Assembly: GCA_015234045.1 (NCBI GenBank)
Contig: JADFWU010000024.1
Location: forward strand, 1 to 42,594
Reading direction: 5' to 3'
Origin: Magnetococcales bacterium
GTDB taxonomy: Bacteria > Pseudomonadota > Magnetococcia > Magnetococcales > JADFWU01
Length of the DNA: 42,594 bases
In this document: piece by piece, positions 14,513 to 19,360 of the stretch
How positions within the stretch are numbered: position 1 is the stretch's first letter
How the letters are laid out: each line of letters starts with the position of its first letter
The notes under the pieces: generated by a model
Databases searched by the model: none
The model's input: the letters and a program-made list of their open reading frames with translations, nothing else
Told to the model about the DNA's origin: nothing
Made by a program: the position numbers and the translations under genes

Positions 14513-14599
14513 GCCCAGGTGGCGGAATTGGTAGACGCGCTAGATTCAGGATCTAGTCCACGCAAGTGGGTGGAAGTTCGAGTCTTCTCTTGGGCACCA
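14513..14599 (+). tRNA. tRNA-Leu (anticodon CAG)
   Basis: An 87-base class II tRNA. The acceptor arm GCCCAGG (14513-14519) pairs with CTTGGGC (14589-14595). The anticodon stem CTAGA/TCTAG encloses loop TTCAGGA, giving anticodon CAG for CUG codons. A long variable arm and a T-loop GTTCGAGTC follow, then discriminator A and an encoded CCA. It has its own promoter and terminator. The TGGCGGAATTGGTAGACGCG D-arm region is typical of leucine tRNA. Confidence 0.97.
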
Positions 14600-14613
14600 A
14601 ATTTTACTATTAG

Positions 14614-14647
14614 AAAGGCCACACCATTTATTGGTGTGGCCTTTTTT
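14614..14647 (+). terminator. Rho-independent terminator after tRNA-Leu
   Basis: AAAGGCCACACC (14614-14625) pairs with GGTGTGGCCTTT (14633-14644) around the loop ATTTATT. A T-run follows. It lies 14 bases past the tRNA. Confidence 0.9.
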
Positions 14648-14741: not shown

Positions 14742-16703
14742 TTGCATGATTCTGATTTAGAATCATGGTCTCAGTTCATTTCTTACTATCAGGACCGTGA
14801 TTTCATGGAACCGCTTGATTTTAATAAGCACAAAAAACTCCGCTTCCATCATTTGGACCATTATCGTTTTGCTGCACAGTGGACGTTGGTGCCTATTACC
14901 TATTCCGAAATTGTGCCGGTTTCGCGGATTTGTCCGGTGGTTTTTCCGCACCCGGACAGTGACCATCCTGATCTGCCTTTGGCGTTGCTCTCTCTGGATA
15001 AAAACGGGTCAAACTTACTGCTCCAAGGTAATGGCCATTGGCGCGGTGATTATGTGCCTGGAAATATTCGTCGATACCCTTTTGCGCTTCAAGATGGGGG
15101 TGGTGCGTCAGATCGAAAAATTTTGCTTAATCCGGAATCTGCTCACTTTCATCAAGGCGGTGGTTTGTTATTATTTAATAACGAAGGAGAGCCAACCGCA
15201 GAGCAGAATCGGATCAAAAACTTTTTAGAGACAATCTATAAGGAGGAGCGCACAACGCTTCAATTGGTCCATCTTCTGAGAGAGTCCAGGCTGTTGGTTG
15301 GGAAGCGTTTGCATCGTAAAAAACCAAAGCAGAATGATGCCGATACGCTGCATCAGGGGTTTGAGGTGCTGGACGCGGATCGTTTGGCAGCGTTGGAAGA
15401 TGATGTGTTTCTGGATTGGCGTAGACGGGGTGTGTTGCCGTTGCTCTACGCTCATATCGCTTCTTTAAATAATATTGGTCAGTTGGAACGTTGGGAAGAG
15501 CAGTTGGAACATGAAGCGCCTGCGTTATCCGTTGCCCGTCAGGAAAGTCGAGATGCAGCGATTCCGCTCAATCAGCTGAATGATACTCGTTTTACTGGTA
15601 TCTCTGATGATGTGTCCAGTACATCATCCTCAACGGTAGCGGTTCAGAAAAGTGTACCAATAACAACGCCAAAACCAGCCAAGCGCAAAGCCAGACGTGG
15701 TCAGAATAGTTGGATAGCCTATACTTCAGCTGCGGCTTTGGGTGGTTTGGTGGTGCTGTTGGGTCAAGGGGTTATCTCTCAGAAACCATTGGAGAAACAG
15801 GTTGTTGATCAGTCAGTAGTGAGGCCGTCAGTCAACGATGATTCAGAGACAACGGGTTCTACGGACGCAACCGCTAAGACGATTTTGGTCGGTCCAGCTG
15901 AATCTTCTAATAATGTTGAGAAAAAACCAATTATTGTGGTACAGCCAGAGCCATTTGAGCCAGTTCCACAAGTATCTACACAGGTGGACACTGTTCAACA
16001 GGCGAAAAAGGATCACTCTGAGAGCGAAGTGTTGCGTGAAGCGGTTTTGGATGTTGTTGACCAGCAGTCGGAAAATAGTTCTGCACCCGTTCAATCGGTA
16101 GTTGAACGGAGTGAGGGCACAGTACGGCAGCAGGTGGCAGACGGTGCGGTTCAACCGAAGGTGACCAATTTCGAACAGCCTGCGCCTCAGCCAGAAATAG
16201 AGATTGAAGATTCAACGTTGAAAGTCATTCAGCAGGAGACTCCAAAGGAAATTAAGCCAACACATTCTGCCTCGGTAAAACCCATGCTGGATGCGTTTCA
16301 CCGTTATTTTGGCCGACTGCGTTTAACACGTCCGGCTGGTGATTGTGCGTTGGATAGTTTGCGGGAAGCGCGCGGCATCAATCCAGATGATGCTGGTGTG
16401 CGAGCGGCTACAGAACAGTTGGTAACCAAGCTGCTTGAACTGGCTGATGGTGATATTGAAGCCTATCGTCTCTCCAGACCCAAGGGCGCAAATGCTGTCT
16501 TTCGTATCACGCTTGCCAATGAGTTGATGCCAGGTGATATGCGGGTTGAGCAGCGGTTGGATGCCGTTGCATTACGCTATGTGGGGTTGGCTCTGCATCA
16601 TGTTGAGCGTAATAGAGAAAAGGGAATGGGCTATCTGCACGAAGCCATTGCACTCAGACCACACCATCCAGAGGTAGTAAACGCGCAGAATCAGATACAA
16701 TAA
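14742..16703 (+). CDS. SapC-domain protein fused to a TM helix and a helical C-terminal domain
   Basis: A 653-residue protein. Residues ~22-210 are a SapC domain (S-layer-associated family): HYRFAAQWTLVPITYSEI, PVVFPHPD, PLALLSLDKNGSNLLLQGNG, WRGDYVPGNIRRYPFALQ, and GLLLFNNEGEPTAEQN. A linker leads to one membrane helix (residues ~324-346, WIAYTSAAALGGLVVLLG), preceded by a basic KRKARRG stretch that places the SapC part in the cytoplasm. A ~170-residue Ser/Glu/Val-rich low-complexity stretch follows. The last ~140 residues are a helical, TPR-like domain ending YLHEAIALRPHHPEV. The start is TTG 14742 with GAGGA upstream; ATG 14805 is possible but has a poor site. The fusion is unusual, since SapC proteins are normally ~240 residues. 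Function is unknown. Confidence 0.85.
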   Translation: MHDSDLESWSQFISYYQDRDFMEPLDFNKHKKLRFHHLDHYRFAAQWTLVPITYSEIVPVSRICPVVFPHPDSDHPDLPLALLSLDKNGSNLLLQGNGHWRGDYVPGNIRRYPFALQDGGGASDRKILLNPESAHFHQGGGLLLFNNEGEPTAEQNRIKNFLETIYKEERTTLQLVHLLRESRLLVGKRLHRKKPKQNDADTLHQGFEVLDADRLAALEDDVFLDWRRRGVLPLLYAHIASLNNIGQLERWEEQLEHEAPALSVARQESRDAAIPLNQLNDTRFTGISDDVSSTSSSTVAVQKSVPITTPKPAKRKARRGQNSWIAYTSAAALGGLVVLLGQGVISQKPLEKQVVDQSVVRPSVNDDSETTGSTDATAKTILVGPAESSNNVEKKPIIVVQPEPFEPVPQVSTQVDTVQQAKKDHSESEVLREAVLDVVDQQSENSSAPVQSVVERSEGTVRQQVADGAVQPKVTNFEQPAPQPEIEIEDSTLKVIQQETPKEIKPTHSASVKPMLDAFHRYFGRLRLTRPAGDCALDSLREARGINPDDAGVRAATEQLVTKLLELADGDIEAYRLSRPKGANAVFRITLANELMPGDMRVEQRLDAVALRYVGLALHHVERNREKGMGYLHEAIALRPHHPEVVNAQNQIQ

Positions 16704-17957: not shown

Positions 17958-18371
17958 ATGAAACAAACGCTGTTGATAACCGTGTTTGCACTTTTTGTAA
18001 TTGGTGGATATTTGCATCCTGTTACTGATCTGCATGCTCAGGAACCAGTTTTGGTTGCTGAAAATGAGCCATCCCTTTGGGATAAGGTCAAATCCACTTC
18101 TAAAAATGCGTGGAGCAAGACAAAAGATGCGAGTGGTGATGCCTGGGAAGGTACCAAGTCTGGCGCGAAGAAGGGCTGGAAAGCCACCAAGGACGTGAGT
18201 AGTGATGCCTGGGAAGGAACAAAAAAAGTGAGCGGTGACGTTGTGGATACCGGGAAAGATGTTGGCGGTAAGGCATGGAATGCCACCAAAGATGGCGCTA
18301 AAACCGGTTGGGATAAGACCAAAGAACTCAGTAATGATGCCGTGGATGCAACAAAAAGTGCTGTAGGCAAT
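17958..18371 (+). CDS. Secreted protein of nine 11-residue (LEA-like) repeats
   Basis: A 137-138 residue protein with a signal peptide (residues 1-27, cleavage near LHA/QEP). From Leu40 to the final Asn138 the chain is tiled by nine consecutive 11-residue units: LWDKVKSTSKN, AWSKTKDASGD, AWEGTKSGAKK, GWKATKDVSSD, AWEGTKKVSGD, VVDTGKDVGGK, AWNATKDGAKT, GWDKTKELSND and AVDATKSAVGN. Trp or Val at position 2 and Lys at position 6 are nearly invariant. An 11-residue period fits amphipathic helices of the LEA group 3/synuclein type. A role in desiccation, membrane or envelope stress protection is inference. The start is ATG 17958 with AGGAC upstream. It is followed by the gspC promoter region. Confidence 0.85.
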
Positions 18372-18397
18372 TAATATCTCTTCAATTCAGTACGGCT

Positions 18398-18469: not shown

Positions 18470-19360
18470 GTGACCGCTGTTTTTTCTGCCAGACAAAAGC
18501 GTGGGTTAACCGGTGTTGTTATTCAGCGCTGGTTGCCCATTGCATTGAACCTTGTGCTGATCATTTTGATAGCGCGGAGTTTAGCGGGTTTTTCGTGGGA
18601 TCTGCTCTCTTCATGGCTTGATCCTTCTGTCAATAAATCACATACGCGGAATCTGCCGGATAGTGATGGTGTGCATGATATCGTCTCCATCAATTGGCAG
18701 ATGTTCGGTCCACTTTCCATCCAATCAGAAACAAAATCCGCGCGCAGTGCGGCACCAAAAACCAATCTGAAGTTGGTATTACGTGGCATTCTTTCCACAC
18801 AGGGTGAGGGTGGTATCGCATTGATACATACGCCATCCAAAGGTGAACAGATCTATCGTGTAGGTGATAAACTGCCGGGCAGTAGTACACTCCATTCCGT
18901 GCATAGTGATGGTGTTCTGATTGAGCGCAATGGGCGTTTGGAGTCACTGACACTACCAAAGGACCGGGTGAAACTGGCCAATGCCGGTGTTGTTGTGAAT
19001 AAGGGGAGTGACGGTATCAACCGGTTAAAACCAACTGAGGATGCCGCTTCGGTACTACGACATATCCAGAAACAGTTTCAAATTAATCCTGGGAAGATAA
19101 TCAGTAAAGTAAATTTCGAGCCTGCGACGTATAGAGGGCGTTTCCAAGGGTTCAAGATTAATCGGGGGACCTCTGAGACTTTTCTTGATGCGCTGGATAT
19201 TAAGCCGGGTGATGTCTTGGTTGAGTTGAATGGTACGCAGATATCCAGTCCGATGAAGGGCATGGAGGCGCTTTCTGCCTTGGCTAATGCACGGGCAGTT
19301 TCTTATACCGTTCTGCGTGATGGTGATCGCAGGTCTGCACATGTTTCCATGGATGAATAG
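18470..19360 (+). CDS. gspC: Type II secretion inner-membrane protein GspC
   Basis: A 296-residue GspC, the clamp linking the inner-membrane platform to the GspD secretin. A short cytoplasmic N-terminus precedes one membrane helix (LPIALNLVLIILIARSLAGF, residues ~22-42). The periplasmic homology region spans roughly residues 95-160 (LKLVLRGILSTQGEGGIALI, IYRVGDKLPG). The C-terminal PDZ-like domain (GFKINRGTSETFLDALDIKPG) follows. The start is GTG 18470. It is the first gene of the operon. Confidence 0.9.
   Translation: MTAVFSARQKRGLTGVVIQRWLPIALNLVLIILIARSLAGFSWDLLSSWLDPSVNKSHTRNLPDSDGVHDIVSINWQMFGPLSIQSETKSARSAAPKTNLKLVLRGILSTQGEGGIALIHTPSKGEQIYRVGDKLPGSSTLHSVHSDGVLIERNGRLESLTLPKDRVKLANAGVVVNKGSDGINRLKPTEDAASVLRHIQKQFQINPGKIISKVNFEPATYRGRFQGFKINRGTSETFLDALDIKPGDVLVELNGTQISSPMKGMEALSALANARAVSYTVLRDGDRRSAHVSMDE

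Follow-up and report, generated by a model that had tools for sequence, protein, structure and literature searches.

What role could a SapC domain, which normally makes up a whole protein, play at one end of a chain that continues through a membrane helix into a helical repeat domain? The question is raised by a gene in a 42,594-nucleotide stretch of a Magnetococcales genome (hereafter, the window), in which a first-pass annotation had seen a possible new architecture linking a SapC function to the periplasm, while allowing that the C-terminal half might be a separate gene joined by a sequencing error, or the fusion a chance event of one strain. The frame is open throughout 653 codons from a TTG, the third-position GC of the three parts of the gene is alike (0.46, 0.42 and 0.44) and the same order of parts recurs in other genomes, so that there is no frameshift in the gene. 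The first in-frame ATG, at residue 22, is more likely to be the start than the TTG, since in the alignment it fits better with where the relatives begin. Nor is the fusion peculiar to one strain: a search for the same domain order found nine further proteins in five other genomes, or ten fusions in six genomes in all. Sequencing error and chance fusion are ruled out by these ten conserved loci, and an artefact in any wider sense (frameshift join, mis-assembly or strain-specific fusion), for which the draft state of the genome (117 contigs) could be invoked, is extremely improbable in view of the open frame, the even composition and the shared order of parts.

The N-terminal domain matches PF07277 over the whole model (positions 1-220 of 220), with 170 bits against a curated cut-off of 28.9, and is the sole Pfam domain above cut-off in the protein. 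In alignment, 10/10 fusions retain the SapC core residues (E, N, W, P and the YPF motif), and the SapC fold is thus under constraint in these proteins. Other positions have changed: a Cys found in 92% of 38 single-domain SapC proteins is replaced by Leu or Val in all ten, and the second Arg of RRYPF is retained only in the window protein. The domain is SapC and the protein as a whole, which is not a single domain of about 240 residues, is a variant. An AlphaFold2 model of the SapC part, built from four sequences only (pLDDT 64.9), says nothing firm about the fold; it gave no match among solved structures, and the SapC sequence found no credible relative in the PDB. A cytoplasmic location of the domain fits the hydropathy of its single-domain relatives: of 51 ORFs, none begins with a hydrophobic segment when a peak above 1.9 is required (by hydropathy only); in the window ORF, the next-best peak besides the membrane helix reaches 1.28.

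No stretch after the SapC domain is more hydrophobic than the putative membrane helix, whose mean Kyte-Doolittle value is nevertheless modest, and every fused relative has one hydropathy peak in the corresponding region, after its SapC domain. The Lys/Arg-rich stretch from which the orientation had originally been deduced is present before the helix of the window protein, where the 20 residues that follow the helix hold 3 K/R and 3 D/E, but this charge asymmetry is not shared by all relatives. Among the ten fusions, K/R residues are more numerous before the helix than after it in five, equal in two and fewer in three, and the positive-inside bias is thus mixed. The Val/Ser/Glu-rich linker that had been noted after the helix is there, with Gln and Pro as further abundant residues; it extends over about 155 residues and is poorly conserved among the relatives.

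The C-terminal domain has no Pfam match and, in particular, no TPR model listed, and the 34-residue repeat of the Pfam TPR models is not detected in the window protein, while related proteins such as L053 and L067 do pass TPR_11. Structure prediction nevertheless gave, with high confidence, seven helices and an all-helical domain, and a profile search of the PDB matched designed consensus TPR proteins (best E=3.5e-13). A profile HMM of the repeat has 43 positions, a period of 49 and the consensus SRLTRPEGRNALEKYRAVLELDPDNPEAKEGLERIAERLLELA, in which a conserved loop, RLTxPxGxNA, is set between both helices of the repeat. Foldseek alone found nothing better than E=0.13, with BamD on top. A second structural comparison returned many TPR proteins at Z of at most 9.4, including BamD (3q5m, Z 8.3, rmsd 4.0 over 131 residues), where helical repeats at Z under about 13 (here 8-9) may reflect only a common arrangement. 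Because the consensus-TPR profile match, the predicted helices and the TPR chains among the structural matches agree, we regard the domain, on the strength of the model, as TPR-like with an inserted conserved loop. The number of repeats varies: there are two plus a closing helix pair in the window copy, L031 and L032, and one in L034-L038. Taken together, Pfam, hydropathy and AlphaFold2 support the order proposed at the outset, of SapC, one membrane helix, linker and TPR-like domain, the last of which would lie in the periplasm.

Features of the fusion gene and its upstream flank, with positions counted from the first nucleotide of the window.
Feature	Position	Strand	Remarks
tRNA-Leu	14513-14599		Upstream of the fusion gene
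Terminator-like hairpin after tRNA-Leu	14612..14646	+	Upstream of the fusion gene
CDS, SapC-TM-TPR-like fusion	14742..16703	+	653 aa from TTG; 632 aa from ATG at 14805
SapC domain, residues 25-248	14814..15485	+	Pfam PF07277 E=7.6e-50; putatively cytoplasmic
Lys/Arg-rich stretch directly before the membrane helix	15663..15722	+	6 K/R, 0 D/E in 20 residues
Single putative membrane helix, residues 328-346	15723..15779	+	Hydropathy peak 1.59
Low-complexity V/S/E/Q/P-rich linker	15780..16247	+	Sequence, alignments
C-terminal TPR-like domain, residues 503-653	16248..16700	+	AlphaFold2 pLDDT 93.9; profile match E=1.3e-50
Repeat 1 (RLTRPAGDCAL...), residues 527-568	16320..16445	+	Repeat HMM E=5e-12
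Repeat 2 (RLSRPKGANAV...), residues 576-617	16467..16592	+	Repeat HMM E=5e-12
Closing helix pair of the solenoid	16614..16697	+	Model helices 123-136 and 141-150

Fusions were sought by protein search in 61 genomes and through Pfam SapC in 48 genomes of Magnetococcales. SapC itself is common, being present in 40/48 genomes of the order and in 137/398 sampled genomes of the phylum. The fusion occurs, besides the window genome, in one other family of the order, each of whose five sampled genomes carries it, with up to three paralogues per genome (G007, L038; G017, L034 and L045; G022, L033 and L035; G027, L031, L032 and L036; G030, L037); L033 stops at a contig end, and L045 is broken by unread bases, with its repeat in a second frame. 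Three fusion loci were found in Magnetococcales MAG records (JADGBW01, JADFZS01). When a profile of four fusions was run against the 398 genomes, with mostly three candidates scored per genome, full-length matches among those listed came only from the window genome and that family, and elsewhere coverage was limited to one part, either SapC or the C-terminal domain, in agreement with the earlier view that SapC proteins are normally single-domain. The 24 SapC matches in 21 genomes outside the order that have module-like matches are likewise all single-domain. None of 31 plasmid records matching the query did so over 80% of its length, viral contigs yielded no SapC relative, and a search of the SapC loci for a split form, with a module gene beside a single-domain SapC gene, gave one weak module match (L047). 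A 527-aa open frame in G070 was considered as a fusion and rejected, as it seems to be a single-domain gene whose open frame runs on upstream. So far, then, the architecture is known only from two families, both of Magnetococcales. A quick tree was built from 92 SapC domains. On one side of a branch with support 92 it has the ten fused domains and L143 and L149 (very divergent, weakly placed single-domain sequences), on the other the remaining 80. The likelihood improved when the ten fusions were constrained to group (AU p=0.565), so that one clade is not rejected. The fusion seems to have arisen within the order, probably once; a single origin is likely but, because of the long branches in the tree, not proven.

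Unlike the complete fusion, its C-terminal module is found in most genomes of the order by profile search, and weaker matches occur in 21 genomes of other groups of the phylum. It follows Ser/Thr kinase-PEGA proteins in L051, L053, L063 and L065, three of which also have an FGE domain, and is also carried by an AAA ATPase (L057; TIGR03015 at E=1.1e-46, below its cut-off), a PilZ protein (L060), a coiled-coil-like protein without Pfam matches (L070) and OEP/TolC-type proteins. Of these last, L056 and L067 have HlyD and M50 neighbours, and L062, which was recognized by comparison with OEP references, has ABC-HlyD neighbours. In other families of the phylum, L178, L179 and L181 are kinase-like with repeats behind a hydrophobic segment, and L176 and L180 are kinase-like with an FGE-like C-terminus, names that come, for all five, from our reading of the sequences and not from a Pfam scan. 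The module is preceded by signal-peptide-like starts in L067, L069 and L182 and by a kinase-TM arrangement in L051 and L063, which places it outside the cytoplasm; it is periplasmic in those proteins whose location is otherwise plain, and it looks like a promiscuous periplasmic part, a general periplasmic adaptor. L182 (1848-2744, -), on contig C24, encodes a second repeat-bearing protein of the window genome, with one copy of the repeat, and the 1542-aa protein of L068 (6417-11042, -) has eleven copies of RLTxPxGxNA.

The surroundings of the window copy had been described as offering no explanation, and its own neighbours are indeed of little help, but those of its relatives are informative, since giant surface proteins, export operons, PPIases and flagellins lie near SapC. 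In the window, the terminator-like hairpin after tRNA-Leu and a convergent alkaline phosphatase gene on the opposite strand suggest that the fusion gene is probably its own transcription unit. Its direct neighbours include no export gene; a TolC gene lies four genes upstream, and a T2SS operon (C, D, E, F and K components) begins at 18470, two genes downstream. A 138-aa protein at 17958-18374 (+), without a Pfam family, begins in a signal-like manner and contains imperfect amphipathic repeats (WEGTK, SDAW, KGW) that give it a LEA-like look.

Among the fused relatives, L084/L032 shows on one strand an ORF of more than 2,646 aa, whose sampled part matches FG-GAP and cadherin models, followed by a 281-aa ORF, then the fusion itself and genes for a kinase and a large histidine kinase. 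The L038 fusion adjoins ABC-HlyD and TolC genes, and next to that of L034 six ORFs of 278-285 aa stand in a row, the one tested with Pfam being a flagellin. Hybrid histidine kinases adjoin five of the ten fusions (L031, L033, L035-L037). In L031 (3138-8712) and L033, a NIT-sensor hybrid histidine kinase and a response regulator-SpoIIE phosphatase are divergent from the fusion, as judged from domains scanned in L031 only.

For the order as a whole, a SapC ORF was recovered in 61/73 stretches (72 fetched plus the window), and within five ORFs of it we found export proteins (OEP, HlyD, M50, ABC-HlyD) at ten loci, PPIC-type PPIases at eight and flagellins at five. Control counts for 289 ORF centres in 27 other stretches were 30, 5 and 0, respectively, where all 30 export centres come from loci chosen for the C-terminal module, and those for 113 centres in seven arbitrary stretches were 0, 0 and 0, with hybrid histidine kinases near 38 (34%). 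The export signal is therefore weak against the 27-locus control and clear only against the seven arbitrary loci, and the counts should be taken as indications, since SapC neighbourhoods were themselves the source of the reference proteins and the genomes, being related, are not independent samples. Individual arrangements recur: SapC adjoins an M50-like 720-aa protein and one or two HlyD in L046 (1476-9139), L112, L113, L114, L123 and L134, with an OEP/TolC protein in four of these six; it stands beside one or two PPIC-type PPIase genes in L115, L120, L125, L127, L128, L131, L133 and L135; and it lies a few ORFs from flagellin-like genes in L100-L103 (single-domain) and L034 (fused). In L173 (3366-8276, -), it is located between what we take to be an outer-membrane TonB-type receptor, cupin-like and halogenase-like proteins.

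Plasmid SapC genes often have giant neighbours, which are seldom found near SapC in Magnetococcales. In 8 of 14 loci examined from the 31 plasmid records, the nearest listed gene encodes 3,400-8,150 aa (three filamentous haemagglutinin-type proteins and one each of autotransporter-repeat, MBG, LEPR-XLL, calcium-binding and hypothetical type). A Sulfitobacter plasmid has a 1,047-aa DUF4214 protein nearby, Gemmobacter has VCBS proteins, Aminobacter a 4,170-aa protein seven genes off, and R. rubrum ABC genes and an M10 peptidase C-terminal protein; the Terrarubrum and Aureimonas plasmid loci show no such neighbours. Large or giant surface-protein genes directly adjoin plasmid SapC in L086, L088, L090, L091, L092, L093, L096, L097 and L099. 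The Campylobacter fetus sap locus, for its part, encodes an S-layer with type I export.

These observations could be reconciled if the membrane-anchored SapC were an adaptor coupling a periplasmic partner to a cytoplasmic role of SapC in making or exporting surface proteins, a reading to which we give a probability of about 0.4. The fusion would be a single-pass inner-membrane protein with SapC in the cytoplasm, a flexible linker crossing the periplasm and the TPR-variant domain as a periplasmic docking part. SapC would help to produce or export surface proteins that are very large or very abundant, and the periplasmic domain would tether this activity to, or report from, an envelope partner, perhaps an export complex or the exported protein itself. 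The parts of the protein, their persistence among relatives, the TPR-like nature and wide sharing of the module and the neighbour counts are observations; we infer the topology, the partner and the function, and the putative role of SapC in S-layer or surface-protein export is deduced from neighbouring genes. In favour are the conservation of the fusion, the constraint on SapC, the TPR-like nature of the module, its occurrence on TolC-type proteins, its periplasmic placement and the neighbours of SapC; against are the lack of an established SapC function in the literature found, the rarity of giants in the order, an export signal that is weak against one control, the kinase neighbours, the window copy without an adjacent export gene and the mixed positive-inside bias. 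The main rival, possible but rather doubtful in our opinion, is a transmembrane signalling device in which the TPR-like domain senses a periplasmic state and SapC is the output or regulated domain. The same build with a kinase (L051, L063, L065), AAA (L057) or PilZ (L060) domain in the N-terminal position speaks for signalling, as do the kinase-like proteins of other families (L178, L179, L181) and the hybrid histidine kinases and response regulators beside L031, L033 and L035-L037. However, such kinases are near a third of the arbitrary centres anyway, we know of no enzymatic or ligand-binding signature in SapC, and the genes around the fusions in L084 and L038 suggest surface proteins and export instead.

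It is also conceivable, if unlikely, that the TPR-like domain only holds SapC at the membrane or the peptidoglycan, with no transfer of information. A long, poorly conserved linker and a module attached to many unrelated domains are what such an anchor would lead us to expect, but the strong conservation of the RLTxPxGxNA loop across unrelated hosts suggests a specific binding surface. The adaptor reading could be extended to a single mobile TPR-variant module that makes kinase, AAA ATPase, PilZ and SapC proteins transmembrane reporters on giant-surface-protein export, an idea we consider improbable. If it were true, giant-adhesin export would have in SapC a cytoplasmic partner that has escaped recognition, acting as pilot, chaperone or gate, and the fusion would physically connect this partner to the export machine.

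A literature search found no description of the SapC-TM-TPR-like architecture, and the literature found on SapC offers no established function for any SapC protein. Passages in the sources refer to a putative SapC protein of Chromatium okenii 'missing the signal peptide' (PMC6374484), to sapC of C. fetus as a component of the Sap transporter (PMC3887049) and to a probable SapC homologue (PMC13340143). For a family that is widespread yet without a function in this literature, the fusion offers a handle: it would fix the membrane side of SapC and tie it to a periplasmic binding module, and the link between SapC and giant surface proteins leads to a testable prediction.

What is new is the domain architecture, and the families that it joins are known. 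SapC proteins of PF07277 are single-domain and about 220-300 aa long; the window fusion matches the complete model and keeps the conserved core positions but, unlike them, carries a membrane helix and a C-terminal domain. That domain is predicted to form a helix-pair superhelix like TPR solenoids, among them the consensus TPRs and the periplasmic BamD, but its period is 49 instead of 34 and it has the conserved loop between the helices. The closest parallels in overall build are the Ser/Thr kinase-TM-PEGA-TPR-like (-FGE) proteins (L051, L053, L063, L065) and the kinase-like L178, L179 and L181, which share an N-terminal cytoplasmic domain, a linker and the same repeat module beyond a hydrophobic segment; they differ in that the cytoplasmic part is a kinase and that some add PEGA and FGE-sulfatase domains. 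ExeA carries a periplasmic peptidoglycan-binding domain, and the XrtA/ExeA-type AAA ATPase L057 has, like the fusion, a cytoplasmic domain, a TM segment and the periplasmic module, with the ATPase in the place of SapC.
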